Part shown: piece by piece, positions 758 to 42,205 of the stretch | Layout of the letters: each line of letters starts with the position of its first letter | Numbering within the stretch: the stretch's first letter is position 1 | NCBI GenBank assembly: GCA_016839815.1 | Contig: JAEOTM010000097.1 | Span: forward strand, 1 to 47,262 | DNA length: 47,262 nt | From: Candidatus Hodarchaeota archaeon | Lineage (GTDB): Archaea > Asgardarchaeota > Heimdallarchaeia > Hodarchaeales > Hodarchaeaceae | Direction of reading: 5' to 3' | Program-made: the position numbers and the translations under genes | The notes under the pieces: model-generated | What the model saw: the letters and a program-made list of their open reading frames with translations, nothing else | Told to the model about the DNA's origin: nothing | Database searches by the model: none

Positions 758-765
758 TTTTTCTT

Positions 766-770
766 CTCCT
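766..770 (-). promoter_or_regulatory. Shine-Dalgarno AGGAG fixing the TTG start of the APH-like kinase
   Basis: On the minus strand AGGAG lies 8 nt before TTG at 757. Upstream in-frame TTG and TTA codons lack any such motif, so this site decides the start. Confidence 0.6.
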
Positions 771-839
771 ATTCTTACAGCTCTGTTAGATTCATATCTT
801 AAAAAGTTCAGCAATGATAATAATTTTTAAGATAAGGAG

Positions 840-1064: not shown

Positions 1065-1075
1065 ACCTTTTGATA

Positions 1076-1675
1076 TTAATTCTTTTCTTTCTCTTTAAGA
1101 AGCTTATCAATCATATCCAGCAATTTCTGATTATGATTCTGAATAGTAAGGAGATGACGCTTAAATTCCTTTAGGTGGGTAACATCAGATTGTTCTAAGA
1201 TCTCTAAGAGTTCAGCTTTTGGAAGACGGAACATTGGAGGTGGAGGATGAGGGGCCTCTCCTGTTCGAGAAATAAAGCGCTGAGTCATGTTTTTTCGATG
1301 ATCTTCAATTTTCCTTGCAACAATGATCCCGAAAGGCGTTAAGCAGTATTGCTTAGGATTTCTGGAACTATCGTCTGAAGAAGTTTCAGAATCTGGGATA
1401 TGCTCAATAACTCCATCTTTTACAAGTTCTTTCAAAATGGGGTAAATCGAAGCAGTTTTTGGACTCCAATCTCCATGTGTCTCTCTATGAATTGCTTTAG
1501 CTAATTTGTATCCATGAAATGATTTATTATCACTATGTTGGTACAGTAGAAGATGTAAAATGAAGAATCTAAGGCTTCCTCGTCTATATCTATGAAACCA
1601 AGTATGAACTATCTGCTCTGCGCGATCTTCTAGCTTTTTATCAGTAGACAAGAGAAATACCTGCAATATTGACAT
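1076..1675 (-). CDS. PadR-family transcriptional regulator
   Basis: A 199-residue protein with a PadR-type winged helix at about residues 31-122: GSLRFFILHLLL, then HGYKLAKAI, then a recognition-helix region around PKTASIYPILKELVKDGVI, and a wing ending in KQYCLTPFG. A proline-rich linker (HPPPPM, about 143-148) leads to a basic amphipathic C-terminal helix (150-199) that would make the dimer. PadR proteins are usually ligand- or stress-released repressors of efflux pumps. This gene is transcribed away from a two-gene multidrug-type ABC exporter across a 70-bp gap that contains a palindrome, so control of that exporter and of itself is the natural reading. The first 28 residues are longer than usual for PadR and no clear ribosome site precedes the ATG. 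The start is therefore uncertain. Confidence 0.88.
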   Translation of the reverse strand: MSILQVFLLSTDKKLEDRAEQIVHTWFHRYRRGSLRFFILHLLLYQHSDNKSFHGYKLAKAIHRETHGDWSPKTASIYPILKELVKDGVIEHIPDSETSSDDSSRNPKQYCLTPFGIIVARKIEDHRKNMTQRFISRTGEAPHPPPPMFRLPKAELLEILEQSDVTHLKEFKRHLLTIQNHNQKLLDMIDKLLKEKEKN

Positions 1676-14464: not shown

Positions 14465-17400
14465 TTATCCCTCCAATTTTTCCGTAAATTTCAATTCACT
14501 AACGATTTTTATAAAAAGCTCAATTTGGTCAGCATTCGGAATTTTAATCTCTGTTAAGTGATTTGTGGATAAGGGAACATACTCTTTCGGAAATTTTAAG
14601 GAGTAATTCATTGCTACTGGAACACTACTACTCTCTTCCTGAAAGAATAAGAGTTTATGACCGTCTATTACCTCACTAAACACATGAATCCCATCATGGT
14701 TTATTGAAATTCCTCGGACATGATTATGAAGAATGTTCTTTGCTAGGTTTTGACTTCTGATAATCATCTCTATGGGTATTGTTTTAACTTCACGGGGTTC
14801 AGAATGAAATCCTCTCATGGTTGCTTCATTCACAGTCTTACTGAAGTATACTATTGGATAGATTATCAGTAAAAGGTAAATTCCCACCTCATATATTGAA
14901 TAAATTAAAAATTCTGTGGGTTCGAGGGGAACAGAAGCAGAATAATCCCTGTAGATCCAATCAGAAATAGGAAATGGTCCAAAGATCGAATATAAGACTG
15001 TTTGGAATAGAATATGACCTAGGATGAGAAGAATGAAACCAAAAGCACCCCCTGATCCATATGATTTCAAAAGGTAAAAATGTTCCTGGAAGGACAGTTC
15101 CGATTCAATTCCTCTAATAATCATGAAATACCAAAATTTTTGGAAAAGATACAGAATAAAAACTCCCACTAAAAGAAATGAGATAAACATAAAGAGATTG
15201 AGGGGGAAATCTGCACCTGGATACCAAAAATCTTGATTTCTTTCATGAACGGGGATAAATAAGACGATTAGTGTGAGAACCGCTGTTAATAAAGAAAATG
15301 CAAGTGTACATATTCCTACACAAGCCCAAAACAGACTAGAAAGGATAGAGTAGATGAAAGATTCGGGAGCTTCTTTATGGGTGAGATAATAAACTATAGG
15401 AGTTATCAACGCCATACCGACAATTGCTAGTAATGGATTAAAAATCATAAAGGAAGAAGGTTGTTGAGGGCCCAAAATTTCCGAAAATTGAATAAATCCT
15501 CTAACTGCAGTATCAAAGGTATTCAACCCCCGAATAACTATTGACACATCCATTATGTAATTAAATGTGATGATAGCCATTAATAATAGAAAAACCGTTT
15601 GGAGAGGGAGTGTATTATTCCTAATAAATCGAAAAATCCCACTTTTAGATATACCCTCAAGCAATTTTCTCTGTTCATATGATGTGGTAGTTCTTCCTGT
15701 GAGGAATGGACTAATAAAATGAGAATTTTGATTTATTGGATTAGAGGAGCTGCTTAATCCAGGTTTTTGTGAATATACCGCTCTATAATCTGTACTCGAT
15801 CGATATGGATCTTTTTCTTTATATCCTTTAACCATTGGACGTCCAGAAATGGTTGCTACAATATTCTTTCGACTAGATCGGAAAGATGGTAGAATCGTAC
15901 TAAATATGGTAATTAGAAACGAAAAACTCATCCAAATAATGATATCAGTTACGGGAAAAGAAACATTGATAGGGATGGATTCAGAGATATAATCAGCTAA
16001 GAGAATTGCACCAATAACTCCATCTAATAATCCAACAATCAATGCGGAAGCTCCGAGAGCAATGGACTCCGTCATAAAAATTCCAAAAACCCCTCTGCGG
16101 TTCAATCCTAAGCTACGCATGATACCGATTTCACGTTCCATTCGTAAAGTCGAAACTAAAATGCAGACAAATTGTGCTATCGCAGCTAGGATAAATGATT
16201 CAATAAAAAGGACTTGAAAAATTGCAGATTGAAAAATCAAGCTTTTTTTCATCATTTCAGAGAAAAATGTTATTGGTATAATCCCATCCTCTTTAAATTC
16301 AGGGTACATAAGTTCAAGACTTCTCTTCACACTTGAAAATCTCTCATCATTCACATCACAGAGGAACCATTTGGCCATAGTCGTGTTGAAGAATTCACGG
16401 AAGTGTGCAGTAGGGATGTACAAATATTCTCCGTTTCCTAGAAATACATTTGCTTTGATTACGGCAGCTAAAGTTATATTAACGGTTGAATTGTCTGCAA
16501 TTTTTAATGTAATATTAGATCCCAAAGGTTCATGGAGTCTTTGATAGAGTAAATGAGAAATAACACCAAATGTTTGATTTACATTCGACTGATTGAGCAT
16601 AATATATGGATCCATTGTAGAAATACTATCTATTGTGGGTTCACTAAAATAAGCGTATTTGGCTGGATCGACTCCAAATGCATAACTAGATACATCCCCT
16701 ATTTCCGTCCTTACCTCCTGTATAAAAGAACTTTTATTTACATGTAGAATGTTATCAATACGATCTGTAGCATTAGTAGGAAGAGGTTCTGCATCTCTAG
16801 TTTCAGCTACTAAGTCTATTGCACCCCATTGATTTTCATAATAGGCTGGTACACCAGAAACAACAGCAGCACTAATTAACCCTACAACGATAATGAAAGC
16901 TAATGCTAATGCAGAAGTCATTATTGTAAATAGAGACTTCTGAAACTCACGGGCTATATTACGGGTTGAAATCGTGCGTGTTATGAAACTGAATCCAATT
17001 AGAGCTTTCATTGCAATTTTGGGTAGGAATACCAGAATTCCTATCTCCAACAATACGGTTCCTATAAATATCAACATAACAGCAAGAAAATGGATCGATA
17101 AAATCTCAAAATCTAGGAAACGTGAAGGGCCTACATAATATTGTAAGATGAATCCAACAAGAGCAAGAAGAGCACCTGTTACAATATTATATTTCCAAGA
17201 AATCGTTAATCCTCCGAAAGAGGATCCACTTCGCATTCTAGAATGAATATTTTGTACTATAGGCATAGAAATAGCCAGAAAAATTGGATAAAGACCTGAA
17301 ATTAATGCTACTAGTACTCCTGATAGATAAGTTACAATAATCGAGGTAGTGTGAATAGAGACTTGCTGAAACTCAACGCCCACATAATAATCATCCATAA

Positions 17401-18631
17401 TCCCCACAAGAACGTTGGAAAATGCGATTCCAACCATTACTCCTATAGTACATCCGATCGCGGAATAGATTAGTATTTCCAAAGCCACTGATTCAATTAG
17501 TTGGTAGGCTTTTCCTCCCACGGCACGCAAAATACCGAATTCTTTTGATCGATCTCTAATTGAAATTGCTAAAACGTTTGTAATAAACAAAAATTCCACA
17601 ACAAATGATGCCATGATTACTAAATTCATTGCAGTCTGATAAGCTCGGATCCCTGACGCCTCAATTTCTGAAATGTCTTTTTCTGAGAATACATAATAAT
17701 CTATGCCCACGACATCTTTGATGTTCTCACTAATCTTTTTAATATTCACTAGATTATTGATTTGTATATCTATTTCACTTGATAATATAGAAAAAAGCTG
17801 ATTTTCGTCCACTATGTCATAAAGAAGGTCTAAATCTAAAAGAATAAAGGCAAAACCAATCTTATTTCCGAAAAAGGGTTCATCACTCATTACACCTCCA
17901 AGAGTAACTTCTTGCGATTTGAACTCTGGTCTTAAATCATTGAGATTAATACTATCTCCAATAACCAGACCACCCTGATTAAATAATGATTCTGAAATAA
18001 TTATTCGATTATCTTTTAAACTAAGTTTACCCTGAGTAATATTGATTTGACGGAAATCTGGATGTGTTCTTGAATCAATACCATAAATTAATATGTTACT
18101 TCTTCTTACAGTACCTCCAAATAAGCTACTCACTCGTGCATAAAATACAGGACTTGCTTTTACAACACCCGAGACTCTAGCGATTTTTTCTGTCATTCGT
18201 GTCATAGTTGTGAGATTTTGCCATCGTACAGGGTGGACTGTAATGTCTGTGAAGTTTTGATTTCGATGGTCAAATACAAAATCGTCGTAAAGAGTGTCAA
18301 CCGAAATCACAATCCCTGTTTCAAGAGCTACAGTTAACAAAATGCCTAAAACTAGGAGAAAGGTTCTATATTTTGATCTGGTAACATTTCGTCGAGCTAA
18401 TCCCCAAGAAAGTTTGATTCCAGCTCCTCTTTGCTTAATCTTCTTTTTCCATGAAAATTGATTGAGTTTTCGAGTCTGTACTTGAATTGATCTGTGTGTG
18501 TGAGATTTAATATCTTTTAATTCAGACTGTAACTTGCGTAATTTAGTCGCTGTAACTAACCGTTTCCCTTGTTGTATACTTTTCTTTAGATAATCATTTT
18601 CTGAATTGTTATCTTCCGAAAAGTCTCTCAT
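14465..18631 (-). CDS. Giant double-FtsX (MacB-like) ABC permease with extra C-terminal membrane and cytosolic domains
   Basis: A 1388-residue membrane protein. Order: a polar, basic N-terminal segment (1-85); a first helix (about 90-110); a MacB-type extracytoplasmic domain; a first FtsX three-helix core with DRSKEFGILRAVGGKAYQL; extra helices; a second extracytoplasmic domain (about 600-800); a second FtsX core with MEREIGIMRSLGLNRRGVFG; a Ser-rich cytosolic linker (about 965-1035); a bundle of six or seven further helices (about 1045-1270); and a soluble C-terminal domain (about 1275-1388). FtsX permeases couple to a LolD/MacB ATPase for lipoprotein, lipid or peptide traffic or for mechanotransmission. 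No ATPase gene is next to it, so it must borrow one. The C-terminal module is not part of the usual family. GAGGG about 10 nt upstream supports the ATG. Confidence 0.85.
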   Translation of the reverse strand: MRDFSEDNNSENDYLKKSIQQGKRLVTATKLRKLQSELKDIKSHTHRSIQVQTRKLNQFSWKKKIKQRGAGIKLSWGLARRNVTRSKYRTFLLVLGILLTVALETGIVISVDTLYDDFVFDHRNQNFTDITVHPVRWQNLTTMTRMTEKIARVSGVVKASPVFYARVSSLFGGTVRRSNILIYGIDSRTHPDFRQINITQGKLSLKDNRIIISESLFNQGGLVIGDSINLNDLRPEFKSQEVTLGGVMSDEPFFGNKIGFAFILLDLDLLYDIVDENQLFSILSSEIDIQINNLVNIKKISENIKDVVGIDYYVFSEKDISEIEASGIRAYQTAMNLVIMASFVVEFLFITNVLAISIRDRSKEFGILRAVGGKAYQLIESVALEILIYSAIGCTIGVMVGIAFSNVLVGIMDDYYVGVEFQQVSIHTTSIIVTYLSGVLVALISGLYPIFLAISMPIVQNIHSRMRSGSSFGGLTISWKYNIVTGALLALVGFILQYYVGPSRFLDFEILSIHFLAVMLIFIGTVLLEIGILVFLPKIAMKALIGFSFITRTISTRNIAREFQKSLFTIMTSALALAFIIVVGLISAAVVSGVPAYYENQWGAIDLVAETRDAEPLPTNATDRIDNILHVNKSSFIQEVRTEIGDVSSYAFGVDPAKYAYFSEPTIDSISTMDPYIMLNQSNVNQTFGVISHLLYQRLHEPLGSNITLKIADNSTVNITLAAVIKANVFLGNGEYLYIPTAHFREFFNTTMAKWFLCDVNDERFSSVKRSLELMYPEFKEDGIIPITFFSEMMKKSLIFQSAIFQVLFIESFILAAIAQFVCILVSTLRMEREIGIMRSLGLNRRGVFGIFMTESIALGASALIVGLLDGVIGAILLADYISESIPINVSFPVTDIIIWMSFSFLITIFSTILPSFRSSRKNIVATISGRPMVKGYKEKDPYRSSTDYRAVYSQKPGLSSSSNPINQNSHFISPFLTGRTTTSYEQRKLLEGISKSGIFRFIRNNTLPLQTVFLLLMAIITFNYIMDVSIVIRGLNTFDTAVRGFIQFSEILGPQQPSSFMIFNPLLAIVGMALITPIVYYLTHKEAPESFIYSILSSLFWACVGICTLAFSLLTAVLTLIVLFIPVHERNQDFWYPGADFPLNLFMFISFLLVGVFILYLFQKFWYFMIIRGIESELSFQEHFYLLKSYGSGGAFGFILLILGHILFQTVLYSIFGPFPISDWIYRDYSASVPLEPTEFLIYSIYEVGIYLLLIIYPIVYFSKTVNEATMRGFHSEPREVKTIPIEMIIRSQNLAKNILHNHVRGISINHDGIHVFSEVIDGHKLLFFQEESSSVPVAMNYSLKFPKEYVPLSTNHLTEIKIPNADQIELFIKIVSELKFTEKLEG

Positions 18632-18905: not shown

Positions 18906-19439
18906 TTGACTAGTCACTCAACTTCTGGCCCAATAAAATTTGAAAAAATTCAGGTGTCTAAGCAACGCAGTATTAACATAAAGTTGTGGGGACCTGCTGA
19001 ACATCCTCAATGGGGAATGAAACGGTCTACAATTGAAATTCAAGAAGCTAGGAAGAACGAAGAGGGCCAAATCTCTTATGGAAAGGCAATCAGAATTCCT
19101 TGTGATGGCATAGCCGCGTTATTGGCTGCTTATCTGTCAGTATACCTAATAGAAGGACGTAAACTGAATAAACAAATCAAAAGCGATCCAAAATCATTCC
19201 AACCTGAGGGTTCTGGAATCAAATCGGAAGAAATCGAAAAGCTATTACTAGATCAGTTTAATAATCAAAAAATATCTAAAACCAGAATTCTCCAGACACT
19301 AAGCACAAAGGGACTCGATATCAATAGTGATGCACTTCTAGACATATTAGAATCTCTCGTTAAGGATCAACGAATAAAAAAAGAATCAGCAATTCATTCG
19401 GGGTCAGGAAATACTTATACTTTATGGCATTTTAGATAA
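18906..19439 (+). CDS. Unrecognised protein with a C-terminal winged-helix-like domain
   Basis: A 177-residue protein whose family I do not recognise. The N-terminal half (about 8-90) alternates strands with strongly patterned residues: INIKLWGPAEHPQWGMKR, then IEIQEARK, then YGKAIRIPCDGIAALLAAYLSVYL. This looks like a small beta sheet packed on one helix. A basic linker leads to a C-terminal winged helix (about 108-177), in which SKTRILQTL and LLDILESLVKD read as helices before a short wing. A DNA- or RNA-binding regulator is the plausible type. TTG is the start because GGTGA lies 6 nt upstream, and a TATATG stretch occurs about 40 bp before that. It stands alone and ends 6 bp from the convergent PLP enzyme. 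Confidence 0.65.
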   Translation: MTSHSTSGPIKFEKIQVSKQRSINIKLWGPAEHPQWGMKRSTIEIQEARKNEEGQISYGKAIRIPCDGIAALLAAYLSVYLIEGRKLNKQIKSDPKSFQPEGSGIKSEEIEKLLLDQFNNQKISKTRILQTLSTKGLDINSDALLDILESLVKDQRIKKESAIHSGSGNTYTLWHFR

Positions 19440-19445
19440 AATAGG

Positions 19446-20690
19446 TCAGTTTAATGCTTCCTGAATTTTTTCTGACGAAAAATTACTATCGGGTACTTCT
19501 AGGATGGGTTGAATTGGTTTCAGGTCGAAATTCTCATTTAACCGTTTATGACCCCCTCCAGTTATATTCAATAATATCGTTTCGTTACTATTAATATTTT
19601 TACAGTCAACTGCTTGGATTAAAGATGCGATCGCGATTGCTGCAGGAGGAATGATATCAATTTCTTCTGTATCTGCCATTAATTTCATAGCTGACTGTGC
19701 CTCTACTTCTGAAACACTGTACATGTTTCCATTAGTTTCAGATAAAGCATCATAAACTCCTCCACTAATAGAGTATGGTGGTGTTCTATTTGCCAAAACT
19801 TCTGCAAATAAGGTTACCATGTCCTTAGATGGTAAGCTGAGATCCTCCTCAATAATTTTGTCACGTCGATTAGTCCAGGCTGTAACCATTGGAGCAAATC
19901 TTTTATTTTGGGATAAGTGTAATACAGGTAGATTTTTTCCAAATCTACCATCGGTGATCACCCTTTTAGCTGCTTCCCAAGCGGCAATCCCTCCAGTTCC
20001 ACTACCAATTGCTTGAAAATAATGTCTTGGAATTTCACCGATTACATTAATACCCTCCAAAAAGCAAGTTCCCATTCCATCTCTTCGTGCCACATTCTTA
20101 GCTCCCCCTTCTGTCTCCACTCCTAATTCATCTGATATCTTTGCCCCTAAGTTGATTGCATCCGTATAATCGTTCCCTGATTTCATAGTAATGAGTTTCA
20201 CCGAATTTTCAGATATATCCCCAACGGTCCAAAGACGATTACGAGCTGATTGCGGGGCTACAATGACAATATCAAAATTGTGATTAACTGTTGCCTCTGC
20301 AAATGCTCTACCTGTATTGCCAGCAGTAGCAATTAATATCTCCTTAATTCCCTTTTCCTTTGCTCGAATAATGGTGGGTGGAGCTTCTAATCCCTTAAAA
20401 GTTCCTGTAAAAATTTTTGCTTCCTTTTCAGGCCAATAACCATTAAAGGCAATGTAAAGTTGTTTTAACCCTAATTCTTTACATAGTCCCTTACTTTTAT
20501 AAACGACTGTTTTTCCATCATCTGACTTGGTTGGAGGGTTATTAACGGGTAACCAATTCTTGAATCGCCATAGAGTATTCTCATTTGTCGGATTAAACTT
20601 GGTTTTCGAATAATTTGTCCGTAAAAAACTTGGATTCCTGCACGAACAGGAAAAATTATAATTATCTTCAATGACTCGTCCACAGGACAC
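19446..20690 (-). CDS. Cysteate synthase-like PLP enzyme (threonine synthase relative)
   Basis: A 414-residue fold-type II PLP enzyme. The N-terminal part resembles the zinc-ribbon-like start of archaeal threonine synthases. Then come the stretch WRFKNWLPV, IAFNGYWPEKEA and TGTFKGLEA, with the PLP lysine at about residue 99; IATAGNTGRAFA; and the phosphate loop GSGTGGIAAWEA. The GYWPE motif and xFK-xLEA in place of SFKDRG are, from memory, those of methanogen cysteate synthase, which makes L-cysteate from O-phosphoserine and sulfite on the way to coenzyme M. A threonine synthase with relaxed sequence is the alternative. GTG at 20690 is the only standard start in frame. A TTTAAA box 26 bp upstream suggests a leaderless message, although the frame continues upstream through a Cys that would complete CxxCG. 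Confidence 0.72.
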   Translation of the reverse strand: MSCGRVIEDNYNFSCSCRNPSFLRTNYSKTKFNPTNENTLWRFKNWLPVNNPPTKSDDGKTVVYKSKGLCKELGLKQLYIAFNGYWPEKEAKIFTGTFKGLEAPPTIIRAKEKGIKEILIATAGNTGRAFAEATVNHNFDIVIVAPQSARNRLWTVGDISENSVKLITMKSGNDYTDAINLGAKISDELGVETEGGAKNVARRDGMGTCFLEGINVIGEIPRHYFQAIGSGTGGIAAWEAAKRVITDGRFGKNLPVLHLSQNKRFAPMVTAWTNRRDKIIEEDLSLPSKDMVTLFAEVLANRTPPYSISGGVYDALSETNGNMYSVSEVEAQSAMKLMADTEEIDIIPPAAIAIASLIQAVDCKNINSNETILLNITGGGHKRLNENFDLKPIQPILEVPDSNFSSEKIQEALN

Positions 20691-20876: not shown

Positions 20877-21962
20877 TTATTCAAGCTTGAATTGATCAAT
20901 TGCTCCTAGCATTTTTGTACTTAAATCAGAAAGTTCTTGTAAAGAAGAGGTCAATTGTCCAACAGCACTGGATTGTTCCTCAGTACTCGCAGCTACCTCT
21001 TCACTAGAGGCGCTATACTCCTCAGCTTGAGCAGCTAGCTCTTGAAGGTGAGCCCGAAGATTTGCGGTTGATATTTTTATTTGAGAAGTGATTTCCAAGG
21101 TTATATGAGAGATATCAACAGCATTTATTCTTGTTTCTTCTGATAAACGTCTAACATTGTCAGCTACGACGTCAAAACCTTTCCCAAACTCTCCAGCTCG
21201 TGCTGCTTCGATTGCAGCGTTAATGGCGAGTAAATTTGTTTGATTAGCGATTTCTTCTATTACTTCTAGAGTCTTACTTATATTCACTAATGCTGTATCG
21301 ACGAATTTTGCCATTTCATCCAGATTGTTCAAACCATTTGAAACTAATTCAGTTTGTTTTGACGCTCCTAAAGAAATTGCTTGAATTGTTGCAGCTATTT
21401 CTTCAGTTAGTGCACTAACCTCTTCTGCAGTTGCTGCAATCTCTTCTGTGGATGTTGCGAGATTTGTTGCTGCTCCTTGATTTGTAGCGATGATATTACG
21501 AAGATTATTTATTGCTAATAAGAAGGAAGTCTGGACTCTTCCAATCTCATCTCCACGAGGGTTTTCTAAACTTTTATATTTCTCTAATGAGAGTTCATTG
21601 TTGGCAATTTCAGCAGCAGATTCCGCTAGATCAACAAGTGGGCTAGCTAAAGATCGACTATAGAAGTAAACAACAAGAGCTCCTCCAATTAACCCAATAA
21701 GATAGGTAAAACCTGAGACCCACATCATTCTAACAAATTCGGACTCTACAAACTCTCCTACGGCAATATTTTCACTAAATTCATTTTTTATTGTATCAAT
21801 GACGTTATTTATGGAAAAACTATATACTGTCATTAGTAATGTTAGTGGTACAACAGTGACTACAAACATCACAGCAAGAAGCCGAAATTTTAATCCACGA
21901 GCTTGCCATAAGCTAGAGAAAATAGAGGACAATTTTATACACCTTTTAGAAAGAAAATTCAA
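20877..21962 (-). CDS. Short methyl-accepting chemotaxis-like signal transducer
   Basis: A 361-residue membrane receptor. Helix 1 (about 27-49) and helix 2 (about 78-101) bracket an external loop of under 30 residues. A HAMP segment (about 102-155) and a coiled-coil signalling domain (about 160-361) follow. The hairpin tip is well preserved: [26 protein letters not shown], then [13 protein letters not shown]. Flanking helices have the [10 protein letters not shown] and [17 protein letters not shown] repeats, whose E-E pairs resemble methylation sites. The loop is too small for a ligand domain, so it may sense membrane state or through a partner. No CheA, CheW, CheR or CheB gene is in the window. 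It is divergent from a roadblock gene over 122 bp, so a link to small-GTPase control is possible. Confidence 0.88.
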
Positions 21963-22084
21963 ATAGAATTTTATTTACTCTATAAAAAATGAAATTTCAA
22001 TTCAAATACATCAATAATTACGAGGTCAGAATATTTTAATAAGATGTGTATTTACCTTTTCGAAGAGATGTTTGAGGTTTTGTC

Positions 22085-22468
22085 TTGTACGATTCAACTG
22101 AAGGTTTCCGCTCTGTTCTGAATGAAGTTTTCGAACAGAATTCTCAAGTTTTAATGATTTCCTTAACAACTCCTGAAGGATTACCGATTGTACTTCTTTC
22201 GCGGGGAGAATCTGGGATAGAAGAGATCACAGATGGAAGTATTACCAATCGTTATGCTGCACTTGTTGGTGCTAGTACCTCATTGGGTGACCGCACTCTA
22301 TCCACCCTCAGTCAGGAAAAGGTTCGATTAATCCATGTTCAGGGAGAATCACGAGATATTGCTATTTCGATTGCAGAAAAGGTGATAACTCTTGTGATTA
22401 CTGAACCTAGTGGTAGTGCTAATTTATTAGCTGAAAAACTCACAAATAGTCTGAAAGTACAGATGTAA
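22085..22468 (+). CDS. Roadblock/LC7-domain protein (MglB-like)
   Basis: A 127-residue single-domain roadblock/LC7 protein. The layout fits: an N-terminal helix (FRSVLNEVFEQNSQ), then strands ISLTTPEGLPIVLLS, a long helix with ITNRYAALVGASTSLGDRTL, and paired strands KVRLIHVQGESRDIAISI and KVITLVITEPSG, with a final helix. Roadblock proteins dimerise and regulate Ras-like GTPases, as MglB does for MglA and the Ragulator subunits do for Rag GTPases. The TTG start has GAGG 7 nt upstream. The next gene begins 1 nt after the stop and itself appears to contain roadblock-like folds, so the two proteins may assemble together. Confidence 0.82.
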   Translation: MYDSTEGFRSVLNEVFEQNSQVLMISLTTPEGLPIVLLSRGESGIEEITDGSITNRYAALVGASTSLGDRTLSTLSQEKVRLIHVQGESRDIAISIAEKVITLVITEPSGSANLLAEKLTNSLKVQM

Positions 22469-22469
22469 A

Positions 22470-24428
22470 TTGGTGGATGTAGTGAATAATCCTATTGAAT
22501 GGTTTGATCTCCTCAAAACAGCCATCGACCATACAATGGTTGAGGTTTCGGATTTTCCCTTAGATTCGGCCTTTTTATATTCGATAGAAGATGATAAATC
22601 AAATTTTTTCGTGAATAAAACAAGGATAGATAAGAAATACTTATCGATATTTGATCAAACATGGGCGATTCTTACACAAATTTTGACAAATGAACTTCAG
22701 CTATCGGGATGGAAGACCTTAACACTTTCAGGACGCACTCGTGCAATATCAATCAAATTATTGACACCCTTTCCGAAAGTCTATCTCACATTGATACATG
22801 AAATCAATTTTGATACAAACGAGTTTATGAAAATCTTTATGAAACACATCATAGAGTCTGGGTATAAGATTGAATTTGAAACAGCTGGCTTAGTTGCTTC
22901 CGAAGGTTACCCTATCTGGGTTATGTCTGAAACTCAACAAATTGATGAATATATGTTTGCTATATCAATAACATCTTTATTAACCTTAGTTGAACGTATA
23001 GATATGGAGGTAGCTGCTGGAGGAGTTTCTTCCTGTATTGTTCACGGAAATGAAAATCTGCAACTAAACGTTACCTTTAACCCAAGTCGTGATTTGGCCT
23101 TTGCTACAACTCAGAGAGTATCTGATCAGTCTCCTAATGTTGATGAAAAATTACAAATGATTTATGCCAATATATCGGATCCTGTACTTTTTAGTGCATA
23201 TGTTCCAGAAATAAAAAATCCAGAAAGGGAAAAAATACTATCAGAGTTACGAGAGGAAAATGTAGGGGAGATAACAGAGGAAGAAATGCAGAGTTTAAAT
23301 ATTTTTGATACAGAAACTCTTGATTCCTTGGTAAATGAAATTATGAGTGTTTCCCGTAATTTTGGCGCTAATGAGATCTCAATAGGATATTTACGGAAGC
23401 GTATGAAGTTACCAGCAGAAGTATTACATATGGCACTTGAATATTTGATTAGTAATAGTGCTATCATTGGAAGGATAGGGAGAGAAAAGCATTCTGGTAA
23501 AGAAATTCTTGTCATCCAATCTCAAAAAATACAATCAGAGACTGATATACTCACTATTCAGAATGTTCAACAACAGGTTAATGATTTATTTCTCCCGCTA
23601 GATCCTTTTTTGGCCCAGTTACCTATTGTGCAACAAATTGCAGAGACAGAGGTTATTTCTGAAGCTTTGTCTGAATTCCAAGTCCTACAATCGTTATCTG
23701 ATACAGACTCATTATTTCTACAGTCTGGGGATTTGAGAATATTAGCAAATCAATTAGAAAGGTCAGTAATGACTATAACCATGCTTCAAGATCAGGTGAC
23801 AGAAAATCAAGATAATGTGGATTTCGTACAAGAATTGAAAGAAAGACTTGATCGACAAATTGAGAAATTTATTAATCAACGATCGTCAATTGCCACCTCT
23901 GCGAAAAAATTATATTCAGATTTACTAAATTCTTATCGAATATTATTGAAATTGATACCTTCCCCAAGCAATATCAAATATAATAAAGCTATAGATAAAA
24001 TTTCATTGGTGTTTAAGTGTAATCATGCTTTGTGTAAAAATTTCCTCTATAAATATGATGATGCTATTGGCTGGCGTAGAATTATATATTTTTCACAGGT
24101 TTTAAATCTCATTGAGGGTTTTCCAGAGGGATGGGAGCAATTAGATAAAGAAGAAATGTCAACCATTGATATATTACTTTCTAAATTGAAAGAAATAACT
24201 AGTTCAGACCAATTTGCCTCATTGGAATCTTTTTCTTTTCTCTATGAATTGGATGAATTAATTATATCCAATATAGAGAGTGACAAAATGGTTTCCTCCC
24301 TTCGCCAAGCTCTTGATCAATCAAATAACCAAACAGATTATTATACCACCTATCGGCAGTGTAATAATTGTCAGAAGTGGTATTGTTCTAAGCATATTCG
24401 TGCAAATGATCTGTGTATCTATTGTTAA
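22470..24428 (+). CDS. Multidomain roadblock-like / winged-helix / zinc-finger protein
   Basis: A 652-residue soluble protein I do not recognise as a whole. Visible regions: an N-terminal alpha/beta region (about 10-130), possibly a divergent roadblock or longin fold; a clearer roadblock-like domain (about 136-220) with GLVASEGYPIWV, a long helix ISITSLLTLVERIDME and paired strands; a winged helix (about 295-350) with ISIGYLRKRMKLPAEVLHMAL; helical coiled-coil-prone sequence (about 355-500); a mixed helical region with CNHALC (517-522); and a C-terminal zinc finger, Cys631-x2-Cys634-x4-Cys639-x2-His642-x6-Cys649-x2-Cys652, where the last Cys is the last residue. The upstream roadblock gene is 1 nt away. 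A scaffold linking GTPase control to another process is plausible; its activity cannot be read from sequence. Confidence 0.7.
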   Translation: MVDVVNNPIEWFDLLKTAIDHTMVEVSDFPLDSAFLYSIEDDKSNFFVNKTRIDKKYLSIFDQTWAILTQILTNELQLSGWKTLTLSGRTRAISIKLLTPFPKVYLTLIHEINFDTNEFMKIFMKHIIESGYKIEFETAGLVASEGYPIWVMSETQQIDEYMFAISITSLLTLVERIDMEVAAGGVSSCIVHGNENLQLNVTFNPSRDLAFATTQRVSDQSPNVDEKLQMIYANISDPVLFSAYVPEIKNPEREKILSELREENVGEITEEEMQSLNIFDTETLDSLVNEIMSVSRNFGANEISIGYLRKRMKLPAEVLHMALEYLISNSAIIGRIGREKHSGKEILVIQSQKIQSETDILTIQNVQQQVNDLFLPLDPFLAQLPIVQQIAETEVISEALSEFQVLQSLSDTDSLFLQSGDLRILANQLERSVMTITMLQDQVTENQDNVDFVQELKERLDRQIEKFINQRSSIATSAKKLYSDLLNSYRILLKLIPSPSNIKYNKAIDKISLVFKCNHALCKNFLYKYDDAIGWRRIIYFSQVLNLIEGFPEGWEQLDKEEMSTIDILLSKLKEITSSDQFASLESFSFLYELDELIISNIESDKMVSSLRQALDQSNNQTDYYTTYRQCNNCQKWYCSKHIRANDLCIYC

Positions 24429-24484
24429 TACGATCATTATAATAGAATAGATCGTGTACAATCTCTGAAGATAGGAGAAATCCA

Positions 24485-25270
24485 ATGGTATTAGTGACAG
24501 GTATAGATATTGGTTCTCTAACCGCAAAAATTGTAGTTTTAGAACTAAAGGAAGATACTCTCGATAAAAGGTTCTCTCAAATACAGAAAGTAGGATATTC
24601 ACCAACTAGTATAGCCCAAAATCTAATAAAAAATGCAGAAAATGAAATAGATGGACAGAAATTAGATTATATTATATCGACGGGGTATGGGCGTCAATTA
24701 GTTGAGAGTGCAGATAAAACAATTACTGAAATTACCTGTCATGCTGTAGGAGCATATTATTCAGATCCAACAATTCATACGATAATTGATATTGGCGGAC
24801 AGGACTCCAAAGTGATTCGTGTTAATGATCAAGGGCAAGTTCAGGATTTTGAGATGAATGATAAATGTTCAGCTGGATCAGGGAGATTTTTAGAAGTAAT
24901 GGCTGATGCACTAGAAGTATCAATTGAGGAATTTGGATCACTAGGTTTAAACTCAACAACACCTAGTAAGATTTCAAGTACTTGTACAGTTTTTGCTGAA
25001 TCAGAAGTTATCTCACGAATAAACCAAGGAGCTAATCGCACTGATATTGTTGCTGGAATACATGAGTCTATTGTTAATAAAATTGTTGCCCTTGCTTCTC
25101 GTGTTGGAACTGAGCCTGAAATTTCTCTAACTGGAGGAGTTGCTTTGAATCCTGCAGTGAGAACCTTATTAGAACGGGAATTCGAAACCAAATTACAGAT
25201 TCCCAAAGAGCCCCAAATGAATGGGGCACTTGGAGCAGCAATCCTAGCATCAAAGTATTATACAAAATAG
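24485..25270 (+). CDS. BcrAD/HgdC-type [4Fe-4S] activator ATPase
   Basis: A 261-residue actin-fold ATPase of the 2-hydroxyacyl-CoA dehydratase / benzoyl-CoA reductase activator family. It has the phosphate-1 loop GIDIGSLTAKIVVL (6-19), DIGGQDSKVI (102-111) and the adenosine loop LTGGVALNPAV. The two cysteines that bridge one [4Fe-4S] cluster across the homodimer are both present: Cys128 in NDKCSAGSGRF and Cys167 in SSTCTVFAES. Family members use ATP to inject a low-potential electron into a dehydratase or reductase. No HgdA/B-type partner is adjacent. Instead it lies between the zinc-finger protein (56 nt) and a threonine/serine dehydratase (8 nt). Length is that of the single-domain activators. 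Confidence 0.9.
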   Translation: MVLVTGIDIGSLTAKIVVLELKEDTLDKRFSQIQKVGYSPTSIAQNLIKNAENEIDGQKLDYIISTGYGRQLVESADKTITEITCHAVGAYYSDPTIHTIIDIGGQDSKVIRVNDQGQVQDFEMNDKCSAGSGRFLEVMADALEVSIEEFGSLGLNSTTPSKISSTCTVFAESEVISRINQGANRTDIVAGIHESIVNKIVALASRVGTEPEISLTGGVALNPAVRTLLEREFETKLQIPKEPQMNGALGAAILASKYYTK

Positions 25271-25278
25271 GGAGAATA

Positions 25279-26250
25279 ATGGCATCAAAGATCTATACAG
25301 GTTTAACTCTCCAGGAAGCACAAAATACTCTTTCAAGTATTCGACCATATATATTGAAAAGTCCCATTATTCGAAGCCATGCTTTAGAGGCTAAACTCAA
25401 TAAAAAAATATATTGTAAGTTGGAATATCTTCAACCGACTCGCTCCTTCAAAGTAAGAGGAGCATGTTCAAAAATTCTTTCCCTAGAGAATAATCAAGAA
25501 GGTGTAGTTACCGCCAGTGGAGGTAATCATGGTTTAGCTGTCTCGTATATCTGTAATGAGCTTAAACTCCCAGCTATTGTGTATCTTCCTACAAATACAA
25601 CTTCTGAAACGATCGATATGATCAAGTTTTGGGGAGGTACTCCTGTGCTTTATGGCTCATCTTGGGATGAAGCTGATGAGAAAGCACAATTGTATGCGAA
25701 AGAAATGCAGTTGCCTTATGTTCATGCTTTTGATGATACTGCAGTAGTTCGTGGACAGGGAACGATTGCGATTGAGATGCTCAATGAGCAATCAGGTCTC
25801 GATGCAATATTTCTATCAGTTGGGGGAGGAGGCTTAATTAGTGGTGTAGGTGTTATCGCTAAACAAATGAAACCTGAAGTCCATATTAATGGTGTAGAAA
25901 CAGTTGGAGCTGATGCTGTTACCCAAAGTTTCAATTCAGGAAGAATTGAACGATTGCCTGCAATTACTAGTATCGCTAAAACATTAGGTGCTCAACAAAC
26001 AACTGAGGATACTCTAGCTCGAATAAAAGTAAGTGTAAACGATATGCAGACTGTAACTGATCAAGAAGCTTTAGATGCCCTAAAATTCCTTTTGGAGGAG
26101 GAAAAGATCTTAGTAGAACCAGCTACTTCTTGTATTGTGGCAGCTTTACTCGAAAACAAATTTGATCTCTCACAATATAACACAATTGGTATCATACTTT
26201 GTGGTGCTAATGTCTCTCTTCGTGAACTTCAAAAATGGAATGTTGTTTGA
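25279..26250 (+). CDS. Threonine/serine dehydratase, fold-type II PLP (TdcB/IlvA catalytic type)
   Basis: A 323-residue PLP enzyme. The Schiff-base lysine is Lys58 in PTRSFKVRGA; TASGGNHGLAVSY is the substrate-carboxylate loop, and VGGGGLISG binds the PLP phosphate. VEPATSCIVAALL near the C-terminus is the region holding the pyridine-nitrogen contact. It has no ACT-like regulatory domain, so it matches catabolic threonine dehydratase, serine dehydratase or serine racemase in length; these cannot be told apart here. The reaction would be deamination of Thr or Ser to a 2-oxo acid. It starts 8 nt after the activator ATPase with GGGAGA upstream, so the two are very probably co-transcribed, although the chemistry that would join them is not obvious. 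Confidence 0.88.
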   Translation: MASKIYTGLTLQEAQNTLSSIRPYILKSPIIRSHALEAKLNKKIYCKLEYLQPTRSFKVRGACSKILSLENNQEGVVTASGGNHGLAVSYICNELKLPAIVYLPTNTTSETIDMIKFWGGTPVLYGSSWDEADEKAQLYAKEMQLPYVHAFDDTAVVRGQGTIAIEMLNEQSGLDAIFLSVGGGGLISGVGVIAKQMKPEVHINGVETVGADAVTQSFNSGRIERLPAITSIAKTLGAQQTTEDTLARIKVSVNDMQTVTDQEALDALKFLLEEEKILVEPATSCIVAALLENKFDLSQYNTIGIILCGANVSLRELQKWNVV

Positions 26251-26389: not shown

Positions 26390-26893
26390 ATGGACACACT
26401 AGAATTATTAAAAAGTCGTCGAAGTATTAGAAAATATAAATCGACTCCAGTAGAAGAAGATAAAATCCAGAAATGCCTTGAAGCAGCTCGATGGGCTCCT
26501 TCTGCCTCAAATAAACAACCATGGGAATTTATGATCGTAACCAACAATAAATTTCGTCAGAAAATGGCTGAAGTTCACCCTTACGCAAAGTTTGTTTCCG
26601 AAAGTCCAGTAGTTTTCATTCCACTAACTGATCCGACCATTCATTCTGATTACCATCAATCAGACACTGCTCTTGCCACAATGCAATTCATGATTATGGC
26701 TCATTCACTAGGTTTAGGTACTTGTTGGGCTGGAGTAATTAATAAACCACAAATCGAGAATAAAATTAAAAAAATGCTCAATATACCCAATAAATTGCGG
26801 GTACTTGCGATTGTTGCTTTAGGTTATCCTGATCATACAAGAAAGTCGGAACGCAAGGACATGGAATCTTTACTTCATCGTGAGGAGTACTAA
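26390..26893 (+). CDS. Nitroreductase-family FMN oxidoreductase
   Basis: A 167-residue flavoprotein of the nitroreductase fold. It begins with the standard LLKSRRSIRKYKSTPV segment, whose Arg/Ser/Arg residues bind the FMN phosphate, then ARWAPSASNKQPWEF lining the flavin. A helix with ALATMQFMIMAHSLGLGTCWAG follows, and ALGYPDHTRKSERK is at the end. It is at the short end of the family, like archaeal members, and acts as a homodimer with NAD(P)H on quinones, nitro compounds or other acceptors. It follows the dehydratase after 139 bp, probably with its own promoter, and ends 5 bp from the convergent membrane gene. Confidence 0.9.
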   Translation: MDTLELLKSRRSIRKYKSTPVEEDKIQKCLEAARWAPSASNKQPWEFMIVTNNKFRQKMAEVHPYAKFVSESPVVFIPLTDPTIHSDYHQSDTALATMQFMIMAHSLGLGTCWAGVINKPQIENKIKKMLNIPNKLRVLAIVALGYPDHTRKSERKDMESLLHREEY

Positions 26894-31458: not shown

Positions 31459-32097
31459 TTATGCGTTAGAGGGTTTAGTAGACGAGAGATTAGCAGAAAA
31501 TTCAAGTTTGTTTAAAGTTTTATCAATATAGATTTCAGGATCTTTCTTTTTCAATAATAATAGTCCTAATACTTCGAAAGCTTCTTCAACGTTCATACCT
31601 GAGAGTGCACTGGTGTACATGAAAGCTGTTGAATCTGCGTGAAATTCCATCTGCAGTTCGTCTTTGAAATTAGAGATAGCATCCTGATCAATAAGCAATT
31701 TTTGTTGTAAATCACTTTTATTTCCTAAAAGCACAATGGGGATGTCATGATGAGCGTCCCCTAAGTTTTGAAGTACTTCTATCTTCCATTCACTTAAATT
31801 TGCCAACGAGACCGGGTTAGTAACATCGAAAACCATGACAATAGCATGAGATCCGCGATAAAACGTGGATCGGACAAATTCAAAGCGTTGTTGTCCTGCT
31901 AGATCCCAAATTTGAAATTTAACTTTACTACCATCAACATCTACGGTATGTGTGCAAATATTTGTACCAATAGTTAAATTATAAGTGGAAGCAAACCCTT
32001 TCCCTAAAAATCTCTCTACAATCGCTGTTTTTCCAACTCCACCATCACCGACAAGACAGACCTTATACAGATCACTCTTGATTTCGAAGATACTCAT
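31459..32097 (-). CDS. Ras/Rab-like small GTPase
   Basis: A 212-residue small GTPase from the chosen ATG. All motifs are intact: G1 GDGGVGKT at about 17-24, a switch-I Thr in YNLTIGTN, G3 WDLAGQ with the catalytic Gln, G4 NKSD and G5 TSAL. The effector and switch sequences (FRSTFYRGSHAIVMVFDVT-like) are close to eukaryotic Rab/Ras. The C-terminus is a Lys-rich helix and a Ser/Thr tail with no CaaX or CC prenylation motif, so membrane attachment, if any, must be indirect. GGAAACA precedes this ATG; an in-frame ATG at 32211 would add 38 residues that look non-native. It is probably regulated by roadblock proteins such as those at 22 kb. Confidence 0.93.
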   Translation of the reverse strand: MSIFEIKSDLYKVCLVGDGGVGKTAIVERFLGKGFASTYNLTIGTNICTHTVDVDGSKVKFQIWDLAGQQRFEFVRSTFYRGSHAIVMVFDVTNPVSLANLSEWKIEVLQNLGDAHHDIPIVLLGNKSDLQQKLLIDQDAISNFKDELQMEFHADSTAFMYTSALSGMNVEEAFEVLGLLLLKKKDPEIYIDKTLNKLEFSANLSSTKPSNA

Positions 32098-32314
32098 TGT
32101 TTCCACATTCGAGAGACTAGTTGTATTACCATTAATCATAATTATAATAAGAGTTACCAGAGAATCTATTCGAGTATCCGTTTTTCTCCATATATCTCCA
32201 AGTTCTAACATACTCTCATGGGAATAATATCTTAATAGTTTCTATAGAATGAATATCGTAAAGACTACTTAAATATTTAATTTTAATAGTCAAATATTCC
32301 GATTACTTGCTAAG

Positions 32315-37262: not shown

Positions 37263-37505
37263 CTCATTTACTTCTACTCTTTTTTGTTATTAAAGTGAAT
37301 CTCTTTGACTTTCGCAGCAATTCTTAATAAACCTGTAAATTTAAGAAGATTTCATCGGTTGACAAGCTTTATTTTCTATTAAGTTTTCATAATGTGTTAG
37401 TGAGTGATCAAATAAGATAATTATTCAAGTACTATTTTTCGTTTTAGATAAGTGTTTTTCCATAAATGATAAATAAGATGAATGCATCAAATGAAATATC
37501 TTCGG

Positions 37506-37512
37506 AAAGGAG
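37506..37512 (+). promoter_or_regulatory. Shine-Dalgarno AAAGGAG deciding the CysH start
   Basis: AAAGGAG lies 11 nt before ATG 37524, inside the reading frame of a possible upstream start at 37482. It is the only good ribosome site here, so the shorter protein is preferred. Confidence 0.5.
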
Positions 37513-37523
37513 TAAGAATTCAA

Positions 37524-38234
37524 ATGACAATATCACAAAAAACATTACCTAATTCAGAGATAAGTCAAAATAATAAAATTATGGATATTCTGCCCTATAA
37601 AGTAGATAGAGCAAAACAAGTTATATCGAACGCCCTTGAGGAATATGGTGAAAAAATATCGGTTGCTTGCAGTTTTGGGAAAGATAGTATGGTTGTTGTA
37701 CATTTAGCACAGCAAGTAGATCCCAATGTAAGAATTTTCGCTGTTATGACTCCCTTTAAGCCGAAAGAGACTTTTGAGTATATGGATGCAATGATTAAGA
37801 GATATAGTCTCAATATCCAAGTGTATATGTCGGATGTGAAGGTGGATGAGGACCTTCCTAAGGAAAATCCAGATGTATGCTGTGATATTTTGAAAGTGGA
37901 ACCTACTAAGGAGGCAGTAAAAGATCTTGATGCTTGGGTTTGCGGATTACGTAACACTGAAGGTCGCACCCGTAAAAATTATGTTGAAAAAGAGGAAAAA
38001 GAGGGTTTGATAAAGATCAATCCAATTTTAGAATGGACTGAGCTAGATATTTGGCGTTATATGGCTATTAACGAAATTCCTGTTCACCCCTATTATGCCC
38101 GAGGGTATAGAAGCCTTGGTTGTGAACCCTGTACCTCCTTGATTAGTGATACAGGTTTAGAACGAGAAGGACGATGGATAGGCACAAGTAAATGCGGTGG
38201 GGAATGTGGGATTCACACTAAACCTTTGAAATGA
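37524..38234 (+). CDS. cysH: APS/PAPS reductase family (CysH-like) with [4Fe-4S] cysteines
   Basis: A 236-residue adenylyl-sulfate / phosphoadenylyl-sulfate reductase-type enzyme. The PP-loop is ACSFGKDSMVV. The Cys-Cys pair at about 119-120 and Cys-x2-Cys at about 200-203 (GCEPCT) are the four cluster ligands of the iron-sulfur APS-reducing type. The C-terminus has KCGGECGIH, whose last Cys is the catalytic thiol. The reaction is reduction of APS (or PAPS) with a thioredoxin-type donor to sulfite plus AMP (or PAP). No ATP sulfurylase gene is in the window. Sulfite is also the co-substrate of cysteate synthase, encoded 17 kb upstream. An in-frame ATG at 37482 would give 14 more residues. Confidence 0.85.
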   Translation: MTISQKTLPNSEISQNNKIMDILPYKVDRAKQVISNALEEYGEKISVACSFGKDSMVVVHLAQQVDPNVRIFAVMTPFKPKETFEYMDAMIKRYSLNIQVYMSDVKVDEDLPKENPDVCCDILKVEPTKEAVKDLDAWVCGLRNTEGRTRKNYVEKEEKEGLIKINPILEWTELDIWRYMAINEIPVHPYYARGYRSLGCEPCTSLISDTGLEREGRWIGTSKCGGECGIHTKPLK

Positions 38235-39702: not shown

Positions 39703-41520
39703 TCAGCTCATAGATTTGATAAATCGTACAATATATCTTTCGACAAGAACGGCTATTAAAATGAAAGATAAAATGAGAAAAATCCAGGAAGAAAACGAGG
39801 GGAGAGCTGGTTGGGGGATTAAAAATGAATAAGAAGCACTGAATCCTAATAAGAAGCCCGAAAATATCCCTTGGAGACTAACAAATATATTAATCCAGAT
39901 TATTATTCTCCTCATTACTTTAGCTCTTCCACCTAGCACTCGCATAACATAAAGGTCTTTTTCTAGAACAAGGATGTATAGACTTGAGAAGGCGACCAAT
40001 GATAGGCCAATAGATAGAATAACAGGGAGGAAGATGATATTTGAGATCAACCAAAAATCATTGCTGAAAGAACGGTAAATTTTCTCATAAGAGCTTAGAG
40101 AAAAATAATTAAGGTCAAATTCATGAATTAAATTTAAAATAACTTCATTTGGATCCTTGATAAACACAATATTACGTTGAGAATTATTGATATACCAACT
40201 TAAACTGGATAAGGCATTGATATGTAGATAAGAACAATAACCCTTAGCGAATGGATCCATCAGAACCTTCTCAACTCGGAATCTCTGGAGATCAATTTCT
40301 TCACCGTTCACTGTTTTCGGAATTACCTGCATCACTCCTTCTCTAATTACAAATTGATGGTACCCATCCGCCATAAACATAGTTTCCGCCTTGGGATAAG
40401 AGGATGTGCTTCCAACTGAATAATAATTGAAGATATTGGAGAATGATGAGTCAATTCCCCATATATAACAATTAAACGTACTATTTACTGAGGTAAGTAC
40501 ATCATTAACTTCTCGAAGAGCTTCCAACAAACGAATAGTACCAATAGTAAGTAGTCTGGACTCGAAAATTGTACCAGATGGTAAATCTTCAATAAAAGTA
40601 TTCGGGATAAATTCATTAGAAAAAGATTGAGGTGCATTAAAGGTTAACTTCTCATAGGGATCATAACATTTCTTTATTAGCCCGGAAAAGTCAGGAGAAG
40701 GTGTAACAACGATAATATCCTTTCCCCCATATCCCCTTTCCACATACGAATCCGCAGTATTCTGAATTATTGATCCACCTAAGATCCCGAAAGATGAGAT
40801 AAGAGTAAGGACCAGAATACCTAGAATCATGATACGGGAAACAAGTCTAGCTCTAGTCTGTAAAAGATGCCCTAATCGAAAAGCAGTTCTCTTTTTAGCA
40901 GAAAACCCCCAAACCTTATTTGGATTCGTGGGAGTGACTACATATTGACTATCTAAGATTTCACGAAATTTTCTCCTTATCAAGACATTTATTACAAATC
41001 CTCCAGCAAAATAAGTTCCCACTGCGGAACAAACTAAGAAACCCAAAGAAAACAAAAAAAGATCCATTCCTGAAATCTGTAAAATTGGGAAACCTAAGGT
41101 TGATAGGAGAAAAAAACCTAAAATGCACCCCTCTATGATACCCAAAATTCCTCCAATCGTCGTAATTATGAATATTTCTGCAATGGGTATTCGTTGTATT
41201 TGCTTAAATGTACCCCCTAGGGATTGGAAAACAGCTAAATCTTTCATCCTGGAGACAGCAAGTAAAGATGCTAAGACACTTGCAGATATAATAGAGGAGA
41301 GTAGTGCGAATAAAAGTAAAAAACTCAGATATAGATCCATAATGCTAATAATGGATCCATTGAACATTTGTGTGGCTTCAGCCACTTGTAGCTGAAGAAC
41401 AGACGATATAAGAAATACATTGATGCCTGTAGCTGTAAGTAAAGAATGAGTAAAGATATAGAGAAAGGACCTTTCTTTTTTCCTAGTAACGTCCTTCCAC
41501 GCGATATTAAGAGAGCCCAT
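39703..41520 (-). CDS. FtsX/MacB-like ABC permease
   Basis: A permease of about 605 residues starting MGSLNIAWKDVTRKK, the usual amphipathic lead-in. Helix 1 is at about 20-40. The first FtsX core carries SRMKDLAVFQSLGGTFKQI with three helices; after it come further helices, a lysine/arginine-rich cytosolic loop, and an extracytoplasmic domain (about 240-480, with CYDPYEKL and a CYIW pair). The second core has EKDLYVMRVLGGRAKVMRR. It overlaps the end of its ATPase gene by 14 nt, so translation is coupled. Members move lipids, lipoproteins or peptides or act by mechanotransmission. An upstream ATG at 41583 would add 21 odd residues and overlap the ATPase by 77 nt. Confidence 0.87.
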   Translation of the reverse strand: MGSLNIAWKDVTRKKERSFLYIFTHSLLTATGINVFLISSVLQLQVAEATQMFNGSIISIMDLYLSFLLLFALLSSIISASVLASLLAVSRMKDLAVFQSLGGTFKQIQRIPIAEIFIITTIGGILGIIEGCILGFFLLSTLGFPILQISGMDLFLFSLGFLVCSAVGTYFAGGFVINVLIRRKFREILDSQYVVTPTNPNKVWGFSAKKRTAFRLGHLLQTRARLVSRIMILGILVLTLISSFGILGGSIIQNTADSYVERGYGGKDIIVVTPSPDFSGLIKKCYDPYEKLTFNAPQSFSNEFIPNTFIEDLPSGTIFESRLLTIGTIRLLEALREVNDVLTSVNSTFNCYIWGIDSSFSNIFNYYSVGSTSSYPKAETMFMADGYHQFVIREGVMQVIPKTVNGEEIDLQRFRVEKVLMDPFAKGYCSYLHINALSSLSWYINNSQRNIVFIKDPNEVILNLIHEFDLNYFSLSSYEKIYRSFSNDFWLISNIIFLPVILSIGLSLVAFSSLYILVLEKDLYVMRVLGGRAKVMRRIIIWINIFVSLQGIFSGFLLGFSASYSFLIPQPALPSFSSWIFLILSFILIAVLVERYIVRFIKSMS

Positions 41521-42205
41521 GTTCTTCACGTAATTTCCATTCGTCTGGAATATAGATTCTATCAGCTTGGGGAAAAATACCACGAGAATGCGTAACCACT
41601 ATGACAGTCTTGTGCCCTTTCAGGCTTGCTAGCTTGTTGAAGATAGCTTGTTTTGTCCTTTCATCCTGATTTGCTGTAGGTTCATCGACAAGTAATATTT
41701 CTGGATCAAGGATTAATGCTCGAATAAATGCTGCACGCTGATATTCTCCTCCACTAATCATACGTGGTAAAGAATGTGCTCGATGGGACATGTAGAATTC
41801 TTCCAATAATTCCCATGCACGTTTTTCATAATTTAAATCATCTCTTTGGGCTAGTTCGACTGGGAGTAGAATGTTTTCAAGAACTGTTAATGTTTCAATT
41901 AAGTGACCTAGCTGAAAAACAAGGCCAATTCCAGAAGAACGGAATAGAGCTAGAGATTCTTCATTAAATTCACTTAAATCATGATCAAAGACACGAACTG
42001 TTCCCTCATCAACTCGTGTTAATCCTGCAATCATTTGAAGGATGGTTGTCTTACCACATCCGCTTGGACCTGTGAACACGATAAAATCTTTCTCATTACA
42101 TTTGAAATCTAGGTTTTCAAATAGCGTAATTCTCTCTTTTCCTATTTTGAATTGTTTTTTAACTCCTGTGAGTTCAATTATTGGTCCAGAAGGGGATTGT
42201 GTCAA
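41507..42205 (-). CDS. MacB/LolD-type ABC ATPase
   Basis: A 232-residue ATPase with all motifs: Walker A GPSGCGKT (46-53), Q-loop Gln98, signature SGGEYQR (151-157, the E-Y/Q form of LolD/FtsE types), Walker B with Asp174-Glu175, and H-loop His206. It acts as a dimer with the FtsX permease that overlaps its 3' end. The giant FtsX protein at 14-18 kb has no ATPase of its own and might also use it (inference). The start is TTG with no clear Shine-Dalgarno; a TTTATAAAAAA box at about 42236-42250 would give a short leader. It is divergent from the membrane-anchored wHTH gene. Confidence 0.93.
   Translation of the reverse strand: MTQSPSGPIIELTGVKKQFKIGKERITLFENLDFKCNEKDFIVFTGPSGCGKTTILQMIAGLTRVDEGTVRVFDHDLSEFNEESLALFRSSGIGLVFQLGHLIETLTVLENILLPVELAQRDDLNYEKRAWELLEEFYMSHRAHSLPRMISGGEYQRAAFIRALILDPEILLVDEPTANQDERTKQAIFNKLASLKGHKTVIVVTHSRGIFPQADRIYIPDEWKLREEHGLS

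Follow-up and report, generated by a model that had tools for sequence, protein, structure and literature searches.

The closest described relatives of the locus analyzed here are of two kinds: HgdC–HgdAB and HadI–HadBC, in which an activase acts on a two-subunit dehydratase, and roadblock-containing systems, i.e. MglA/MglB, the roadblock/longin platforms of Asgard archaea and the actinobacterial conservons (Cvn, AGPS). PMC8473912 gives two cysteines for each HgdC subunit and three for each cluster of the dehydratase. PMC10933270 describes, for Asgard archaea, roadblock/longin platforms that bind small GTPases and act as guanine nucleotide exchange factor (GEF) or GTPase-activating protein (GAP). 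It also reports for strain MK-D1 that small GTPase genes are generally not found in operons with roadblock or longin genes and that operon structure is seldom of use for assigning roadblock, longin and Ras-like proteins to one another. The present analysis concerns a 47,262-nucleotide contig of Candidatus Hodarchaeota archaeon (hereafter the window; JAEOTM010000097.1, contig C44 of the 4.24 Mb, 206-contig assembly GCA_016839815.1), which carries an operon combining two roadblock-type proteins with an HgdC-family activase. In the genus of this archaeon the activase is separated from the dehydratase pair, whereas outside the genus its closest relatives adjoin dehydratase-subunit genes, and this separation is the new point reported here.

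The run begins with the gene of a 127-amino-acid (aa) roadblock-type protein (22085..22468, + strand), followed after 1 nt by that of a 652-aa multidomain protein (22470..24428, +). Next come the activase gene (24485..25270, +), whose product has both cluster cysteines, and, 8 nt further, the gene of a fold-type II pyridoxal phosphate (PLP) enzyme of the serine/threonine dehydratase or serine racemase kind (25279..26250, +). The activase was assigned to the acyl-CoA dehydratase activases by TIGR00241 (260 bits vs a cut-off of 125.4), by PF01869, likewise over its cut-off, and by its position in the activase tree. The PLP enzyme was assigned by PF00291 (253 bits); among the 25 families listed, it passed no NCBIfam equivalog cut-off. 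Open reading frame and family searches confirmed the positions, the two short gaps and the activator and PLP identities given in an earlier note on this DNA. The run from roadblock to activator to PLP gene proposed in that note was also recovered and extends further, to a nitroreductase-family gene (26390..26893, +), which family match and neighbourhoods mark as its last conserved member; the chemoreceptor attached to it in the same note is separate.

Like HgdC–HgdAB and HadI–HadBC, the system considered here involves an activase and a two-subunit dehydratase of the same families, with cluster cysteines and with these proteins as best solved matches. Unlike them, its activase gene lies in another operon, together with roadblock-type proteins, and the dehydratase subunits score far below the HadB/HadC cut-offs. 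The likeness to MglA/MglB and to the Asgard roadblock/longin GTPase platforms lies in the roadblock and longin-type folds of predicted models; the run differs from both in that it lacks a GTPase gene, is linked to metabolic genes and encodes a 652-aa protein extended by a winged helix, a coiled coil and a zinc end. A roadblock protein is a core part of the operon in the conservons as well (PMC13343842), but the window's run contains neither a histidine-kinase-like protein nor a GTPase.

A profile search located the 652-aa family in 12 of the 227 genomes of the phylum, one of these being a weak, roadblock-only match. The family occurs in 10 of the 12 genomes of the genus and in one of two (G162) from the other family of the order. 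At least 63 relatives were recovered when the best 7997 candidates from a set of 5.8 billion proteins were scored, and those with a named taxon are all Asgard. The closest order-named relative among the matches listed comes from Candidatus Hodarchaeales (82% identity), and the gene is also present in 'Candidatus Heimdallarchaeota archaeon' MAG_8 and B3_Heim. Wherever a contig of the genus reaches far enough, the gene order is the same (roadblock–652 in 8/8 loci, 652–activase in 9/9, activase–PLP in 9/9 and PLP–nitroreductase in 8/8), and it persists within the genus even where the 652-aa proteins are only about 40% identical; in G149 and G151, insertions interrupt the stretch between the PLP and nitroreductase genes. 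Between G070 and G079, DNA identity over the run is 94.8%. The order is thus not peculiar to this contig but shared by nine loci of the genus, and the tie between a roadblock pair and an HgdC-type activator suggested in the earlier note is upheld. Together, these results show that the roadblock–activase operon is real and conserved in the genus. In G162, the roadblock/652-like pair occurs without the activase (profile scores 38.6 and 202.5 bits), which suggests that this pair is likely the older unit. By eye, genes resembling SufS and SufU adjoin the pair in the G162 locus (L126), and a TnpB-like reading frame (17..1279) stands directly before the run in the G070 locus (L025).

The nearest solved structures are HgdC and HadI for the window activase and HadB/HadC for the dehydratase pair (1hux, 4eht, 3o3m). 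The best relatives of the activase outside the genus directly follow the gene for the larger subunit of an HGD-D dehydratase, and both subunit genes are present where the stretch is long enough. No dehydratase-subunit gene adjoins a window-type activase in the stretches read (0/9). The matching pair of this genome was found on a different contig, C152, without an adjoining activase, and the same holds for six further loci of the genus (7/7). Larger-subunit matches of some kind occur in 134 of the 227 genomes; when the best 30 loci were compared (23 outside the genus and 7 within it), an activase adjoined in 23/23 of those outside the genus.

Both phylogenies are consistent with a separation of two genes that once stood together. 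The activase tree (reading frames of 220–399 aa, contained copies removed, 85 rows) grouped the nine window-type activases in one clade (support 100/99) within a 34-row clade (96/87), as sister to 22 pair-linked rows and two rows without a call; the 34-row clade also holds the pair-linked G159. The larger-subunit tree was restricted to the larger-subunit, C116 and BzdO types (50 rows) and built by a quick method with the SH-like approximate likelihood ratio test (SH-aLRT) alone. In it, all seven genus pairs group together (SH-aLRT 100), and this group is joined to the same pair-with-activase rows in a 30-row clade (SH-aLRT 92). Because the groups adjacent to the window-type clade consist mostly of rows linked to a dehydratase, such linkage is likely the older state. 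Moreover, five of the six activases of this genome adjoin dehydratase-type genes of their own, so that what remains unmatched is the window activase and the C152 pair; an additional lone gene, on C116, is truncated by the contig edge. Gene order and trees thereby give good support to the view that the activase moved away from its likely partner pair.

The C152 pair belongs to the HGD-D family and has cluster cysteines in both subunits. It scores below the equivalog cut-offs of HadB/HadC (276.5 and 109.2 bits vs 750/700) as well as those of BcrB/BcrC and BzdO/BzdN (at most 150.2 bits vs 421.15–486.55). The activase was aligned to 1hux, and conservation was read at the residues that we take to be the cluster ligands in the activase and in both subunits. 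These cysteines are kept in 9/9 activases (one with an altered neighbour residue), all three are kept in 7/7 larger subunits, and the smaller subunit keeps them in all six unsplit copies, the seventh (G150) being split. This retention makes the orphan C152-type pair look functional, in which case it would need an activase. A double-cubane system was considered for the pair and rejected, since both subunits scored lower there than with the Had models. A Bzd-type benzoyl-CoA reductase as the partner of the window activase was likewise rejected because the two such clusters in the genome carry their own activases. These two clusters lie on C95 and C15 (L127, L128), and the subunits of the former pass the NCBIfam Bzd cut-offs; Bcr genes of some Heimdallarchaeota have already been published (PMC8163825). 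In two of the three loci in which a dehydratase–activase trio was read at length (L132 and L133, both of one Asgard family, not L131), the trio was seen by eye to adjoin membrane hydrogenase/complex I-like genes.

The roadblock fold of the two first proteins of the run is supported by predicted models that match roadblock structures. For the small protein (predicted local distance difference test, pLDDT, 82), the best Foldseek matches include Asgard Roadblock3 (9jue) and MglB (6h5b), and Robl_LC7 was detected at E≤0.1 in 17 of 29 relatives. The 652-aa protein is predicted to contain a longin-like domain (~5–131), a roadblock domain (~113–238), a winged helix (~278–350), a coiled coil (~412–494) and a C-terminal zinc-type C-C-C-H-C-C arrangement with an inner C-x4-C. 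The roadblock and zinc-finger assignments of the earlier note did not reach the Pfam cut-offs in the window proteins themselves (Robl_LC7, 15.1 bits vs 23, E=0.019; AN1, E=0.055), and Pfam run on each of 37 relatives of the 652-aa protein gave scattered weak matches only. Both assignments are sustained by the relatives, by the models and by the C-terminal cysteine and histidine residues, which are invariant in 37/37 aligned relatives. In the predicted model, the two N-terminal domains of the 652-aa protein match the folds of Mon1–Ccz1 and Ragulator; this is a likeness of fold only, with 6–11% identity among the matches listed, and membership of these complexes is not claimed.

Ras-family matches number 61 in this genome, a density of about one per 70 kb. 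The Ras-like GTPase gene pointed out in the earlier note as lying 9 kb from the run is present at 31459..32211, but at such a density this distance means little. It is not supported as the partner: it stands at background density, occurs at the same place in G079, was not seen in the G152 stretch and has no match inside the run in the loci compared, where the MglA/MglB or Frz pathway would lead one to expect a GTPase gene beside the roadblock gene. Around the orphan pair of the genus, Ras-like GTPase genes (Pfam-checked for a sample) lie at most about 2.2 kb behind the pair in 6/7 loci, which exceeds the background given by the genome rate, but owing to their common descent the seven loci do not count as independent observations. 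Directly before the pair, 6/7 loci carry one or two short-chain dehydrogenase genes, and a 360–383-aa protein precedes it in 6/7. A longin reading of the latter was not supported, as Pfam gave no match for this genome's copy and hhalign found nothing.

These observations lead us to propose that the window encodes a displaced activase for a distant dehydratase-like pair, gated by two roadblock-type proteins that form a platform for a Ras-like GTPase; we give this proposal as a whole a probability of about one half. Its best part is that the moved activase most likely still serves the C152-type pair, while control of the activase by a GTPase is the weaker inference. In such a scheme the activase would be loaded with an electron, exchange ADP for ATP and fire the electron into the pair, as HgdC does. 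More tentatively, the small roadblock protein may pair with the roadblock domain of the 652-aa protein, the resulting roadblock/longin-type platform could bind a Ras-like GTPase and act as GEF or GAP, and the state of the GTPase might control where or when the activase acts. The zinc end and the winged helix could bind nucleic acid or another partner. The PLP enzyme might supply this route with a 2-oxo acid made from serine or threonine, a guess based on its family membership. A more specific version, in which a platform of the Ragulator kind holds or releases the activase and a Ras-like GTPase, perhaps one whose gene adjoins the dehydratase pair, decides when the pair fires, seems to us unlikely.

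Asgard genomes are rich in roadblock, longin and Ras-like proteins, few of which have an assigned task, and the operon described here connects one roadblock-type pair with one enzyme reaction that can be assayed. Should this connection be real, it would give a biochemical handle on relatives of Ragulator- and TRAPP-like platforms in an archaeon; if the GTPase part is true as well, a G-protein switch would act directly on the electron supply of a metabolic enzyme, again in an archaeon. In the open-licence literature of PubMed Central (PMC), nothing was found pairing roadblock with 2-hydroxyacyl-CoA dehydratase, acyl-CoA dehydratase activase or benzoyl-CoA reductase, nor joining Asgard with 2-hydroxyglutaryl-CoA dehydratase; three papers there mention both Hodarchaeales and roadblock.

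Several results weigh against this proposal. On the side of the platform, the run itself contains no GTPase gene, profile comparison with hhalign gave no solid link between the small roadblock protein and the 652-aa protein, so that their homology at the sequence level was set aside, and the model of the latter has a predicted template modelling score (pTM) of 0.46, because of which its domain packing is not readable. The two halves of the operon are also separable, since the roadblock/652-like pair of G162 stands without an activase. This could be an indication that the genes share a promoter by history, the activase serving the distant pair and the roadblock proteins regulating something unrelated, e.g. 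a membrane GTPase. We hold this explanation to be possible although clearly less probable than the gated activase, as the order in the genus has outlasted divergence of the 652-aa protein to about 40% identity as well as flank insertions and mobile-looking genes, and survives although two genomes have insertions at the end of the run.

On the side of the activase, both pair subunits are missing in 4/10 assemblies with the 652-aa gene (G079, G149, G151 and G145), among them G079, which is 93% complete and whose near relative G070 has the pair. G124 has the pair without the 652-aa gene, and G085 has neither. The genus assemblies listed are 70–96% complete, hence absence of the pair is weak evidence, though not nothing. 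A further 9 of the 85 activases in the tree are without a dehydratase-type neighbour in the stretch read with the queries used, so that isolation of an activase is not in itself unique. Finally, G159, the one class-level trio, which comes from another family, forms a long branch flagged as unsure in each tree, and the two trees disagree on its position: outside the genus and pair-linked clades in the activase tree and as sister to the genus pairs in the subunit tree. The missing pairs, together with the presence of activases of bzd-type and C116-type clusters in the same genome, would suit an activase that has switched partner and reduces a different target, produced by the run or elsewhere, with the C152-type pair using the activase of another cluster. 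Such a change, which we regard as improbable, is disfavoured by where the two trees place the genes of the genus and by the one-to-one match that is left when the other activases of this genome are paired off. Continued service of the displaced activase to the C152-type pair remains the preferred explanation.

The earlier note had assigned the input of the system to a minimal chemoreceptor (20877..21962, − strand; HAMP, 27.6 bits, and methyl-accepting chemotaxis protein signalling domain, MCPsignal, 97.7 bits, both above the curated cut-offs), whose signal was thought to reach a GTPase and the activator by way of the roadblock proteins. The receptor is a divergent neighbour of the roadblock gene, with a gap of 122 bp in this genome, and G130 has a receptor 82% identical at the same place. 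Among the eight genus loci with the upstream side on the contig, however, these are the only two with a receptor next to the roadblock gene; the pair is without it in the other six (G079, G070, G145, G148, G151 and G152), the readable upstream stretch being only ~1.3 kb for G070 and ~0.6 kb for G145. G149 and G150 were left out of this count, as one contig ends at the 652-aa gene and the other has only its 3' half. The lack of Che partners is correct for the window, but contig C98 of the same genome carries CheR, CheD, CheC, CheA, a CheY-like regulator, a protein with two CheW domains, CheW and CheB, and six MCPsignal matches were found besides the window receptor. The neighbourhood test set beforehand therefore went against the receptor: the roadblock pair occurs without it, and a Che set is present in the same genome. 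These data largely refute its role as input, which we consider highly improbable, and it was rejected as a component of the system.

The receptor is accompanied by a cysteate synthase (19446..20690, −; TIGR03844, 514 bits vs a cut-off of 324.9), also outside the conserved run, and both were found only in this genome and in its relative G130. In the window, they lie between the roadblock gene and that of a 177-aa protein with no family match over cut-off (18906..19439, +). Since the 177-aa gene directly precedes the roadblock gene in G145 and G151, which have no receptor, receptor and cysteate synthase look like one insertion. The receptor is thus an ordinary one and a bystander to the conserved run. 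Che genes in Heimdallarchaeia have already been published (PMC9834061); in the open-licence PMC literature, nothing was found joining Hodarchaeales with chemotaxis.

On the same contig as the cysteate synthase, a protein with a 3'-phosphoadenosine-5'-phosphosulfate (PAPS) reductase domain is encoded at 37482..38231 (+), which would be compatible with sulfonate or coenzyme M precursor chemistry. The window also contains two FtsX-domain permeases (14465..18631, −, and 39703..41583, −), one of which has 1388 aa with FtsX and MacB-like stretches.

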